A stretch of 64,000 nt of DNA from Sycon ciliatum (lineage: Eukaryota > Porifera > Calcarea > Leucosolenida > Sycettidae): positions 19,960,154 through 20,024,153 of the forward strand of contig NC_088644.1 of NCBI RefSeq assembly GCF_964019385.1, given 5' to 3'. Below, piece by piece: positions 23,201 to 41,200 of this stretch. The notes under the pieces are model-generated. The model searched no databases. It was not told the DNA's origin and saw nothing but the letters and a program-made list of their open reading frames with translations. The position numbers and the translations under genes were made by a program. How positions within the stretch are numbered: the stretch's first letter is position 1; each line of letters starts with the position of its first letter.

Positions 23201-26200
23201 CAAATGTTCAGAACAGTTTTCTCGTTACGATCATGACCCCTTGCCGGAGATAATGTTTTCGCGCTAGGACCGTGTGTGTCCTTTGTGTAAATATGTTCTA
23301 TCTGTCATTCAGAATAATATTATATAAAAATAAAATGTATTGGCTGGTTTCTTTATTTCCTGCTCAGTGTGGCCTGAACCATCGTTCAGCGTATCGTCAA
23401 CCTACGTGGATTTGAACCTACCAGCCAGCAACCAGCCTTCTGCACGATATGAATTGTTCATCCAGCGTCCTGGAGAGCAGTCGTTTGCATTCTTCGGTTC
23501 TTATGATGGTAAGTGTCAGACATGCAGCATTGCTATGAGTAGCGTGACATGTGAGAACGAGATGTCCTCTTTCATAAACGAATCTGTTCTGCACTGATCT
23601 CAAGTATCCTATGTTTTCTGCTCTTTTCCTATTGTGCAGCGTCTCCAAGTGTCACAATGCAGAGAGTGACTCCGTTGCAGCCTGGGCAGACATATCAGTT
23701 CACTATACGATCAGTTGTGAATGGTGTACCATCACCTAATAGTGCTCCAATCACTGTCACTACCAGTAAGTATTTGGTCAACAATTGTAGTTGTAGACTT
23801 GAAGTGCAGTCATACTGCATCCTCTTACTACATGCTGTACATATCCTGTTATGTAAGTATTGACAGCAGCTTTCACTGTGCATTCTGCATTCACAGGTGG
23901 TGGAACTGAACCCTCAACCTCATCCCCAGAGCTGCCTGCTCCAGGTATGTTCTCTTACATGTAGATCGAGTCTTTGCTTACAATAGGGTCATTTGCCATG
24001 GCCAAGTGCTGGTAGCTCAAACTCCAGCTTATGGACATTCTTTCTTGCCTGGTTGTCTAAAGATAGAGTAATCAGAGCAATGCATGTGTGCTTGTATCGG
24101 AAGAGTGTACAGCCGTACTCTATTCGTAGCCAGCACATTCACTGCATTCATGTCGATACCAAATGTTATACCAGTGCTGCACTTTGCATGCACAGATTTG
24201 TAGAGTTTCTCCTTTTCTTAAAGTATAGTATTGGATTGTAATGAGACGGCCATCAGACTTCACCTCGATATCGAGATGTGAGCTAGAACTACGGGTGAAG
24301 AGCAGCACTTGACACTCCACAGCTTTAGTGTTTCCGCTGAATGTTTATATTTCGGAATTAAATTCTGAACCAAAATGTGGAAGCTGAATCAGAATGTTCC
24401 TACAAGTGAAACGGGGACTGGACTGAAATTTCTGGAGCGCTACTTTACAAACTGAGATAAACTAAAGGATTGACAAGAGACATAAGGCGGTGATTTTAGG
24501 TACGACGAAAGAACCAAGGACTGCAGAAACAAGGAGATCAACAAGTAACGTTAATGCAGAAAATGGGCGGAAGTAAAGGGTGATGGAACGATAGATTTAG
24601 ATTGTGGAGGATATGCATCTTGAACTCATGAACTCATGCAGTTTGTGACTCTCAATTTGTCTTCCAGTACCACCAGGTACAAGCGGAAAGTTTCGGGTAT
24701 TATATACTAGTATATGCTCCGTACATGTATATGTCTTATGGCATTTCTCTTTGTGGTGTTCTCTTGTAATTTCTTGTCACATTCTGTATAGTGTGGCCAC
24801 AACCAGCCTTTAGTGTATCGTCAACGTATGTAGATTTGAACTTGCCAGCTGCCAGTCAGCCATCCTCCACAAGATACGTGATCTATGTTCAACGACCAGG
24901 GGAGCAATCGTTTACGTTCTTTGGAACCTTTCCAGGTATGCATGCCAGTTCTTTGCTTGAGGCTTGTAAAGTGTGAGTTGTTTGCCATGTTGACTTCCGT
25001 ATTTTGCGGTACATGTCTGACATTTTTTTCAGTCTTATGTTTTTTTCTCGGCATTGAGGCAGTTTGCAGTGTTTAAAAAAAATGGTGTGTTGTTTCATTT
25101 GGAGTCTGCTGTTGTGTTTGTTAATTGCAGCATCTCCGAGTATCAGTGTGCAGAGAGTTCCAATGTCTCCAGGTCAGACGTATCAGTTTGTTATTCGCTC
25201 AGTTGTCAATGGAGTCAACTCACCTCAGAGCGTGCCCATCTCTGTTACTGCCGGTAAGTATTTGCTGTTAAAGCTGGAAATTCTCTGGTCACTTGTATTT
25301 GCATTATCTCAGCTATACCTTCCAGCATGTGCTGCTTATTCCCAAGGTTTGCTACATGTAGCACGTCTGGCGAATCCAGGGTCCCGTGGCCCTTAGAACG
25401 TATGCTTGTGGGCGTTGTTTGCATATGCCAAGTGACCAAGTGATCACGGGTGAGCGGCAGGTGTGTACACATAGTGACTCCTCTATCATAATCGAATGTA
25501 GCACGTGATCAAGTCATCATGAGTGAGGCAGCATATGTTTGGCTGCTTAGTTGTTTGCAAGTACCACATGGACCGCATGGCCTAATGATCATGAGTGAAT
25601 GACTACTACTGACTACCCTTCGCCACGTCTTGGCGATGGGCCCTCAAAGTTATGGCCCATGCATGCATGTCCTCTCGTTTTCTGCATGTCTCTGCCTTGA
25701 ATTCCTGTGACTTGTTTCCTTCTGCACTTGTTGATCTCCTACCTGATGCCTTTCTCTTCTAACATCTCAATGTTTCATCATAGGAGATGGCACAGAACCA
25801 GCTACTCAATCACCTGGTGACGGTGCTCCAGGTAAGTCATAGAATTAATGCTGTCAGTCCGTTTGGTTTGCTCCACATGTACTCTCTTTTAGACCTGTTG
25901 TTGTGTTACTTGTCCTTGTCCTCTGAACACTGCTTTAGTTGTGTGAACCCATCAATATGATTGTACTGTACACACGTCTTCTTCTTTGCCTTTTATGCAG
26001 TGTGGCCGGAACCATCGTTCAGTGTATCATCAACCTACGTGGATTTAAACCTACCAGCCAACAACCAGCCCTCTGCACAATATGAATTGTTCATCCAGCG
26101 TCCTGGAGAGCAGTCGTTTGCTTTCTTTGGTTCTTATGATGGTAAGTATCAAGCATGCAGTGTAGTCTTAGTACCATGCATTGCTCTTATTCAGAGCAGG

Positions 26201-38200: not shown

Positions 38201-41200
38201 CCTCACAATATGTGATCTATGTTCAGCGACCAGGAGAGCAATCGTTTACTTTCTTTGGATCTTATCCAGGTAAGCACTTTAATTTATTTCCATATTATCT
38301 ATCTTTTAGCCAACTGTCTACCAAGCTGAACCCTGTAGAATATGGACTTCTCTACCAATTGTTCCTGAAGTGTTGTCTTGGCTGTAGTCTCATGGTCTGT
38401 CTTGTCATTGTATTTTGTGGTGTTATTTGCAGCATCTCCGAGTATCAGTGTTCAGAGAGTTCCAATGTCTCCTGGTCAGACATATCAGTTTGTTATTCGT
38501 TCAGTTGTCAATGGAGTCAACTCACCTCAGAGTGTACCCATCTCTGTTACTGCCAGTAAGATTGCGTCTAGCTCTATTTCTACCCGTGTGTGTGTGTGTG
38601 TGTGTGTGTGTGTGTGTGTGTGTGTGTGTGTGTCTGTGTGTGTTTGTGTGTGTTCGTGTGTGTGTGTGTGTGTTTGGCTATGAATTTGTGCATCTTGCTC
38701 ACACTATCCTCCACAGAAGAGCAAGAAGCCATCTAGAAACTTGCAATTAGCATGGGTGTTCTTGATTCAAATGGGCTCTTTGCTGAATGTTGTGTGGTTA
38801 TCTTTCTTTCTAGGGGATTCCGACGGTCCTTCAACAAAATCCCCATCTGCGCCAGCACCCGGTAGGTTTTATGCACCTAAGATGTCTTATTGTCCTGCGC
38901 AAATTCTCTCTCATTGTTTCTCTCATTCTCTTCTCCAGCTTATTGCACGTACCGTCCCATGTTTTCCAAGATTAACTAGTTTGAATTGTCCCTGGGGATT
39001 CCATAACGAATGTGTGTGAACATCCTGTACTGTGCTTGTTCTCAACCATACAGTTTGGCCACAGCCAGCCTTTAGTGCCTCTTCCACGTATGTAGAGTTG
39101 AATCTACCAGCGGCCAGCCAGCCCTCCACGCAGTACCTGATCTACATTCAACGTCCAGGAGAACAATCCTTTTCTTTCCTGGGGTCATATCCAGGTGAGC
39201 GGCAGCTCTTAATTTGGCATGGCTTGGCCTTCGTGTTTTCAAGGATACTTGCTGCTGTGGCGGGTTAATTGGCGTCTTTGCCTTGACTCTGGTATTGCCT
39301 GTCATACGTACAGTCATAGTTCGTAGCATACATGCATTACATTGCACTAGTGAGTGCATCCTCTGTGTACCTTACGCTATGTTGCATGCGATGCAATTGT
39401 TCTGGTACCGGCTTATTCACGCGGTCATCTTCCGACTCACCCATAATTCACTTCACAGGTGACATGGCTATAGGTCGTGATGTGATGGCTGCACCAATAC
39501 AGATCTTATGTGTGCAATGATATCTATTTCATCACATGCGTGTTTTACTGCTACAGACCACTGTGGAATACTCCTATGCTCACTGTCTTGCTACTTTCTC
39601 TCTCTCTCTCTCTCTCTCTCTCTCTCTCTCTCTCTCTCTCTCTCTCTCTCTCTCTCTCTCTCTCTCTCTCTCTCTCTCTCTCTCTCTCTCTCTCTCTCTC
39701 TCTCTCTCTCTCTCTCTCTCTCTCTCTCTCTCTCTCTCTCTCTCTCTCTCTCTCTCTCTCTCTCTCTCTCTCTGTTGTGTTGCTAGGCTCTTCAAGTGGC
39801 TCTGTGCAACGGATTCCACTGTCGCCTGGTCAGACATATCAGTTTACTATCGAGTCGAGCGTCAATGGTGTCCCTTCAGCTCAAAGTGTTCCCATCACAG
39901 TTGTTACCAGTAAGATCATGTGTACCAGTTCTGATTTGTGGCTGCTCACCACATGGGTGTGTGTGTGTGTGTGTGTGTGTGTGAGGGAGGGGGGTATGTG
40001 TATGTATGTGTGGGAGGGGGTATGTATGCATGTGTTTGTGTCTACTCGCGAGTGTATGTATGCGCATAAGTATATCCAGGGAGTATATTTCTCCTTGCGC
40101 CGAAGTGTGAAAGGCATCAGAACAATGGTCAACGGAATAATGAATTGTCAGGTTGGTGAATAAATTTTCGTGCTAATCATTTTCTTGCGTGTCTCCAGGT
40201 GGTGGCACAGAACCATCCACGACTGCCCCTGCACCTGAAATTCCAGCACCAGGTATGCCATACCCTTGTTATTCTAAGATATCTTCGCCACTTTACTTAT
40301 ATGCTTGTTTGCAGCATGTTTTCATCACTTATTTCTTGGCTGTGATGGTGGGGGAGGGGGGAGGGGGGAGGGGGGGGGGGGGAGAGCTGGGTGTACATGA
40401 CATTGTACATGTATATCTAAAGGTCTTGTGCACCGCATTCTGGGAGTGACTCGGCTTGTATCGTCGATAGGGTGCCATGATTGGAGTGATCTTCTAATTC
40501 AGGACTAGTTTCTCTTCCAATCCTACCACCGTCTTTTGCAGTATGGCCACAACCAGCCTTCAGCGTGTCTTCAACGTACGTGGATTTGAACCTCCCGGCT
40601 GCCAGCCAGGCTGCAACTCGCTATGAAGTATTCATACTCCGTCCCAACGAGCAGTCATACTCTTTCTTTGGTATCTTTGATGGTGAGTCCTAAGTCGTGC
40701 TGTCAGGCCACTTATGAAAGACACTGGCTCTCTGTTTGTAGAGCACTATTATCATATCTGCACTATTATCATATCTGCACTATTATCATATCTGGGCCAT
40801 ATCAGCCAGTTGTATCATGAGAATTACTTTCTTGCAGAAATTTGATCGGAGAACCGATTTGAATATGTTAACAGAACTTGGCACACTCACACATCCGCAC
40901 GCACATGCACACACACACACACACACACACACACACACACACACACACACACACACACACACACACACACGCACGCACGCATGCGCGCGCGCACACACAC
41001 ACACACACTCTCTCTCTCTATTTCTCTCTCTGTCTCTCTTTCTTTCTTTCTCTCTCTCTTTCTCAACTTACCTAGTTTGAATGCAATATTTGCATGTTGG
41101 CATGGTTGCTGAAGAGGCAAAAGTAGCAAGGTTCTATTTATTCATCAGTTGAGGTCGTTCTATTTGTTTGTGCTTCTCCAGCATCTGCAAGTGGCTCAGT

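Follow-up and report, generated by a model that had tools for sequence, protein, structure and literature searches.

We analysed a window of 64,000 nucleotides from the calcareous sponge Sycon ciliatum (assembly GCF_964019385.1, contig NC_088644.1, positions 19,960,154 to 20,024,153; the window is this whole stretch, and coordinates below are counted from its first base). It exhibits an array of 22 modules resembling the fibronectin type III (FN3) domain, among which modules 6 to 19 alternate between two types, X and Y. We consider it probable that this part of the array is a two-module higher-order repeat held in register by recombination gated by sequence type, shaped by unequal crossing-over together with short exchanges and purifying selection. 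Two whole-dimer duplications by unequal exchange (modules 8-10 to 10-12, and 12-14 to 14-16) are supported by the sequence, and the exons seem to have been homogenised further than the introns and separately from them.

The array occupies positions 16559 to 42876 of the plus strand and comprises 65 exons and 64 introns. Each module consists of exon A (138-144 nt), exon B (123-144 nt) and linker exon C (48-72 nt), the last being absent from module 22. Exons A and B together encode one FN3-like domain, and exon C a linker of 16-24 residues that is rich in Pro, Thr and Ser. Each of the 64 introns has GT-AG ends and lies in phase 1, all 65 exon lengths are divisible by three (in an exon model made from the DNA sequence alone, with the C exons chosen under a multiple-of-three condition), and the joined predicted reading frame is free of stops across all 22 modules. 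The product is probably a large protein, secreted or at the cell surface, and its domain content suggests an extended adhesive or matrix stalk outside the cell. Protein searches of the whole 538 Mb genome with exon A (E-value<=1) returned at least 22 matches, each at one of the 22 modules; with exon B (E-value<=0.01) there were at least 21, all in the array, module 2 not being among them. A DNA query (25000-26000) gave 12 matches in the genome; 11 lie in the array, and the other, at a different place, is a 72-bp intron match. One copy of the array turned up in these assembly searches and, among the matches listed, the module was found nowhere else.

The relation to FN3 was assessed against Pfam fn3 (PF00041, gathering cut-off 25 bits) for eight modules and one composite out of the 22 modules. 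Single modules score under the cut-off: 18.6 bits for module 10 (X), 18.6 for module 9 (Y), 16.5 for module 4 and 17.8 for module 20, with E-values of 0.002-0.01. The clear single-module assignment that had been expected was not obtained. For the same four modules fn3 is the only Pfam family listed at E-value 0.01, and modules 9 and 10 cover positions 11-83 of the 84 in the profile. With scores summed over two-module proteins, an X-Y pair reaches 34 bits (its X half being a composite of exons A10 and B8), modules 21-22 reach 27.6 and modules 1-2 19.6. A sequence search of the PDB gave weak matches only, the best (E-value = 0.002) being an engineered FN3. Most FN3 repeats of fibronectin are encoded by two exons, as are the FN3-like domains described here; we know of no separate linker exon per module and no X-Y alternation in fibronectin.

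The order X-Y holds without exception in the 14 modules from 6 to 19. The interval of seven pairs proposed in the initial annotation, 23368-38861, proved exact, its first base being that of exon A6 and its last base that of exon C19. Among these modules, the X type is marked by PEPSF (7 of 7), SYD (7 of 7), TPLQPG (5 of 7) and the linker EPSTSSP (7 of 7), and the Y type by PQPAF (7 of 7), SYP (6 of 7) and MSPG (7 of 7). The Y linker EPATQSP is found in only two of seven. Compared with Y, the X type has one additional residue ahead of PLQPG. The motifs originally given as SYDG and SYPG include an intron donor base in their glycine codon, and the spliced product reads SYDA and SYPA. The two types extend beyond modules 6-19, since exons A and B are X-like in module 3 and Y-like in module 5. 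In module 4, exon A is unlike both types (75-80% identical to X, 70-74% to Y), and exon B is of the X type (89-94% to X); this module was excluded from the X and Y counts. The units are as follows, all on the plus strand.

16559-42876, plus strand: array of 22 FN3-like modules (exon model, splice sites, Pfam fn3 matches)
16559-18988, plus strand: modules 1-2, diverged, not in the homogenised set
19451-22950, plus strand: modules 3 (X-like), 4 (unlike exon A, X-type exon B) and 5 (Y-like), flanking introns mostly unrelated
23368-38861, plus strand: seven X-Y pairs, modules 6-19 (motifs, exon identities)
23368-25831, plus strand: pair of modules 6 (X) and 7 (Y), with X- and Y-type exons and introns mostly unrelated to those of the other pairs
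26001-27810, plus strand: pair of modules 8 (X) and 9 (Y)
27962-29733, plus strand: pair of modules 10 (X) and 11 (Y)
29885-32239, plus strand: pair of modules 12 (X) and 13 (Y)
32400-34848, plus strand: pair of modules 14 (X) and 15 (Y)
35033-36971, plus strand: pair of modules 16 (X) and 17 (Y)
37167-38861, plus strand: pair of modules 18 (X) and 19 (Y)
39054-42876, plus strand: modules 20-22, diverged, not in the homogenised set

Exons A and B are 89-99% identical within a type and 72-81% identical between X and Y. For modules 3 and 5-19 (module 4 excluded), the synonymous difference over exons A and B is 0.03-0.28 within type against 0.57-0.72 between types, and the non-synonymous difference (pN) averages 0.16 between types and about 0.02 (0.00-0.05) within. 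For the introns, global identity was dropped as a test of homology; even unrelated introns reach roughly 60-90% over aligned bases. For this reason we used local alignment scores of intron cores (20 bp trimmed per end) for same-position pairs, with 768 cross-position pairs as controls (99% point 25, maximum 35). Same-type introns exceed the control maximum in 65 of 168 comparisons once a GT microsatellite pair is removed; by position, the counts are 31/56 for A-B, 18/56 for B-C (17 without the microsatellite pair 5-19) and 17/56 for C-A. This microsatellite accounts for the apparent homology between the B-C introns of modules 5 and 19, which we therefore discarded. None of 192 X-Y intron comparisons exceeds the maximum, and one exceeds the 99% point.

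The homologous introns sit mainly between exons B8 and B19, and between neighbouring dimers they are 77-99% identical. The initial annotation held that introns match at corresponding positions; tested against non-corresponding modules, this survives for part of the array only, mainly B8-B19, with 65 of 168 comparisons scoring above all controls and 103 not. Its specific example, the A-B introns of modules 10 and 12, is borne out at 95% identity over 131 bp. X-type A-B introns fall into two unrelated classes, {3, 8} and {6, 10, 12, 14, 16, 18}, the second of which is weakly resembled by the A-B intron of module 4 (score 42 with module 10). In pair 6/7, only the A-B intron of module 6 exceeds the control maximum. 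Modules 6 and 8, like modules 7 and 9, have no intron in common; their exons A and B are nonetheless 93-94% identical. More generally, exons A and B of modules 3, 5, 6 and 7 are 89-98% identical to those of other same-type modules, with nearly all introns unrelated (the exceptions being the A-B intron of 3 with 8, and that of 6 with 10-18), so that their exon likeness is not attributable to recent dimer duplication.

The two duplications became apparent from self-comparison and from intron identities. Segment 26296-28365 aligns with 28231-30288 at 91.9% identity over 2089 columns, which corresponds to [B8-B10] against [B10-B12]. The six introns inside this unit are 95, 92, 87, 94, 99 and 95% identical, whereas outside it modules 8 and 10 have unrelated A-B introns, and modules 10 and 12 unrelated B-C introns. 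In the second duplication, [B12-B14] against [B14-B16], the six introns are 92, 92, 97, 94, 94 and 96% identical in order. Between the copies, ten of the twelve introns differ by 3-8% and the other two by 1% and 13%. The duplications, called recent in the initial annotation, thus look to be of some age and are not very young. The features concerned are the following.

26296-28365, plus strand: first dimer duplication, left copy, exon B8 to B10 (self-comparison)
28231-30288, plus strand: first dimer duplication, right copy, exon B10 to B12 (self-comparison)
28234-28359, plus strand: exon B10, hybrid, crossover between sites 5 and 100 (variable sites)
32676-32801, plus strand: exon B14, hybrid, crossover between sites 41 and 56 (variable sites)
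31845-32043, plus strand: 199-bp insertion in the B-C intron of module 13, a short element holding CCTCGCTTATCCGG (intron alignment)

Exons B10 and B14 are left/right hybrids, which suggests that both duplications broke inside the X exon B. In B10, variable sites 2 and 5 match module 12, and sites 100, 106 and 110 match module 8; in B14, sites 5, 36 and 41 match module 16, and sites 56, 108, 125 and 126 match module 12. Sites at which only the middle copy differs (a single one each in B10 and A14, three in B14) were excluded. All 12 informative sites of the two exons lie in the left/right order expected for a crossover inside exon B. The introns and neighbouring exons on each side agree with this order, one site of exon A10 aside: five of six differing sites in exon A10 go with module 12 and eight of eight in exon C10 with module 8, just as four of four parental sites in exon A14 go with module 16 and three of three in exon C14 with module 12. 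Exon B12 compared with 10 and 14 exhibits the same left/right order except at site 31. A further block, shorter than the two units, pairs 36099-36611 with 38052-38560 (modules 17 and 19, 93% alike); it spans the end of the C-A intron, exon A, the A-B intron and exon B, and may be either a conversion or a duplication remnant. Some insertions occur in a single copy. The 199-bp one is not found in the duplicate intron of module 15, and is therefore probably later than the 13/15 duplication. Relatives of this element occur at 53298-53397 (91%) and 53684-53784 (87%), and at its ends it is similar to pogo/Tigger-type elements.

Exon homogenisation extends beyond these events. Twenty-four of the 56 same-type module pairs are without any homologous intron, and their mean synonymous difference, 0.180, is far below the X-Y level; the other 32 pairs, with at least one homologous intron, average 0.141. 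Homologous introns differ by 0.05-0.24, within the range of the synonymous values. When neutral introns were simulated at the synonymous difference of each pair (small indels only, so that large insertions lie outside the model), 0.8 (indel rate 0.02) to 5.1 (indel rate 0.05) of the 103 non-homologous same-type comparisons would have been missed. Exons and introns therefore have not had one and the same history. At the intron edges (25-39 mutually dependent pairs per edge), pairs with unrelated A-B cores exhibit identities of 0.62-0.64 at 11-20 bp past exon A, against 0.07-0.17 for X-Y, and of 0.54-0.63 at 7-15 bp upstream of exon B, against 0.26-0.29, in each case followed by random similarity. 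Short gene conversion is most likely the best fit to this homogenisation, repeated crossovers within exons being the main rival. The intron homogenisation claimed in the initial annotation holds in part, and is the weaker half of the phenomenon.

Exons A7 (24792-24935, plus strand) and A17 (36177-36320, plus strand) have in common a 3-bp insertion (PSSTRY) together with variants next to it; the two modules lie ten modules apart and have no homologous intron. An exchange of an exon patch is possible; the overall synonymous difference of modules 7 and 17 is 0.19, which is not unusually low.

In the reading we favour, the middle of the stalk would evolve as a two-module repeat whose register is held by recombination gated by sequence type. 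The X exons, or the Y exons, about 95% alike, would serve as recombination substrates, like pairing only with like because X exons diverge from Y exons by about a quarter and the introns of the two types share nothing detectable. Unequal crossing-over inside an X exon B, supported for two events, would add or remove whole X-Y dimers and, changing the number by whole dimers, would preserve the alternation. Short exchanges of exons with a few flanking bases, likely gene conversion, would spread exon sequence within a type, even among modules whose introns are no longer homologous, and purifying selection would keep the two domain types distinct (within-type pN about 0.02). We infer that X and Y no longer recombine, so that events stay in the dimer register and the alternation maintains itself.

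The most serious competitor, which we nevertheless think unlikely, dispenses with gene conversion and lets crossing-over alone, with breaks falling repeatedly inside exons, shuffle exon-intron combinations. Both resolved events do look like crossovers inside exon B, and the A-B intron classes 3/8 and 6/10-18 lie between unrelated introns as shuffled segments would. But exons A5 and B5 are 90-95% identical to other Y exons, with introns on both sides lacking homology to those of any Y module (the microsatellite aside); this pattern would call for double exchanges no more than about 150 bp apart, effectively gene conversion. A recent duplication of all seven dimers, introns and exons together, accords with the two dimer duplications and their intron identities of 92-99% in 11 of 12 introns. 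It is already refuted as a full account by the 103 of 168 same-type intron comparisons without homology, and by pairs 6-8 and 7-9 with their similar exons and unshared introns; we regard it as improbable. Duplication by unequal exchange, as the initial annotation had it, thus stands for two events with hybrid exons and does not explain modules 3, 5, 6 and 7.

That old duplicates were held alike by selection alone, on protein, codons or splicing, is very improbable: the low within-type pN (about 0.00-0.05) would be expected, but protein selection would have left synonymous sites saturated within types too, and they differ by 3-28% within type against 57-72% between; the hybrid exons, moreover, show exchange. 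Arrays that repeat every 1 to 3 kb or so may be mis-assembled, yet an artefact is scarcely credible here, given that many introns are unique, that even in the longest near-identical unit the copies are 8% different, that every module is open with clean splice sites, and that 313 contigs for 538 Mb suggest long reads.

Several observations weigh against recombination gated by sequence type, or blur its outline. The introns just outside the second duplication are still homologous, although more diverged (84% and 85%), which makes its borders less sharp, and the B-C introns of modules 12 and 16 are 90% alike. One site of exon A10 goes with module 8. Within-exon permutation gave modest p values, 0.10 for B10 and 0.029 for B14, owing to the few informative sites. 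For each of the eight X exons B, two parents give a better fit than one (a comparison with no null run), so exchange in this exon probably goes beyond the two resolved events. The 24 pairs with unrelated introns are somewhat more diverged than the others (Mann-Whitney p = 0.012), and within the pairs that do have homologous introns, intron divergence is not significantly correlated with synonymous difference (Spearman 0.25, p = 0.17). Short introns (91 bp) at a divergence of 0.3 would escape detection 45% of the time. At the edges, identity 7-10 bp past exon A is only 0.29 against 0.24 for X-Y, and no clear excess likeness was seen before exon A (7-20 bp) or after exon B.

Copy number of the array possibly differs between individuals. 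A further proposal, which we advance only tentatively, is that the X/Y heterology is a register lock, that stalk length varies between individuals in two-domain steps, that the alternating order and possibly a binding surface are protected, and that the locus is a second independent case of alternating introns, with exons uncoupled from introns.

Concerted evolution of a tandem domain array is well known as broader biology. We found no publication on this gene and nothing combining fibronectin with concerted evolution, in a search that left subscription journals largely outside. The nearest precedent found in form is that of the Argiope dragline silk genes MaSp2.1a and MaSp2.2a, in which two exons and two introns make up the repeated core unit and every other intron is alike, homogenised within the gene to an average of 97.6% (94.3-99.7%) (PMC9779670). 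Its authors proposed that the repetitive introns steer recombination, limiting exchange to homologous regions, and knew of no other gene in eukaryotes where two homogenised kinds of intron alternate (PMC9779670). The sponge locus is likewise a coding gene with a two-unit repeat and within-gene homogenisation; its exons alternate strictly in all of modules 6-19, and its two intron types are mutually unrelated, as the 0 of 192 X-Y comparisons indicate. In contrast to Argiope, same-type introns are not near-identical, only 65 of 168 comparisons being homologous, with a likeness generally below that in Argiope, and the other 103 unrelated; the exons are more homogenised than the introns, and the units are FN3-like domains, not silk. 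The locus is thus a partial second case of the Argiope kind, domain-built, with exons homogenised beyond the reach of the introns. Two crossovers can be assigned to a single exon type here, one of them to within 15 bp, and the locus opens to testing the question of how a multidomain protein holds an ordered pattern while its domain number changes.

Titin, complement receptor 1 (CR1) and abalone VERL are nearest in principle, homology being compared here no further than the FN3-like domain. In the A-band super-repeats of titin, built of Ig and FN3 domains, corresponding positions are most alike, most strongly in the central C-zone (PMC10665226). The likeness lies in FN3 domains in a higher-order repeat; titin is a muscle protein whose units include Ig domains (D-zone -AC-ABC, C-zone -AC-ABC-ABC), in contrast to the FN3-only X-Y dimer. 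The long homologous repeats of CR1 are units of sushi domains. They were altered by unequal crossing-over, with size alleles documented in people (PMC4842007), and resemble our array as a higher-order repeat so altered in an extracellular protein, a location that here is probable. Copy-number variation in people is also documented for the segmental duplication regions of titin and nebulin (PMC9142044), which share with this locus, known here from one assembly, repeated exon blocks in giant modular genes. VERL has 22 repeats, of which 3-22 are homogenised and 1-2, adjoining them without introns, are diverged (PMC2704960). The number of repeats, the homogenised interior and the diverged repeats 1-2 are alike in the two arrays; VERL has one homogenised repeat type and the sponge array two.

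Directly upstream of the array lie three exons that probably belong to the same gene, a linkage we infer.

14034-15668, plus strand: three sushi (CCP) exons (PF00084, 48.6, 48.7 and 29.9 bits, cut-off 20.7)

Just downstream of module 22, a long terminal repeat (LTR) retrotransposon occupies 43661-48342 on the minus strand, with gag, protease, reverse transcriptase, RNase H and integrase domains in one open frame. Its 171-bp terminal repeats (43661-43831 and 48172-48342) are 100% identical, indicating a recent insertion. Beyond it, plus-strand exons at 51485-54495 exhibit sushi (frame 51440-51670, 43.2 bits), TSP1 (frame 51937-52287, 41.7 bits) and VWA (frame 53779-54495) domains, and may be the 3' part of the array gene. 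At the other end of the window, 2-3340 (plus strand) probably holds the last part of an adjacent receptor gene of the sushi type: sushi matches occur in frames 2-499 (partial), 641-883 and 1000-1425, and frame 2938-3339, without a Pfam match, holds a hydrophobic stretch that by eye is like a transmembrane helix. Finally, a single open frame at 58510-59835 (plus strand) combines histone H2A and macro domains and is an apparently intronless macroH2A gene.

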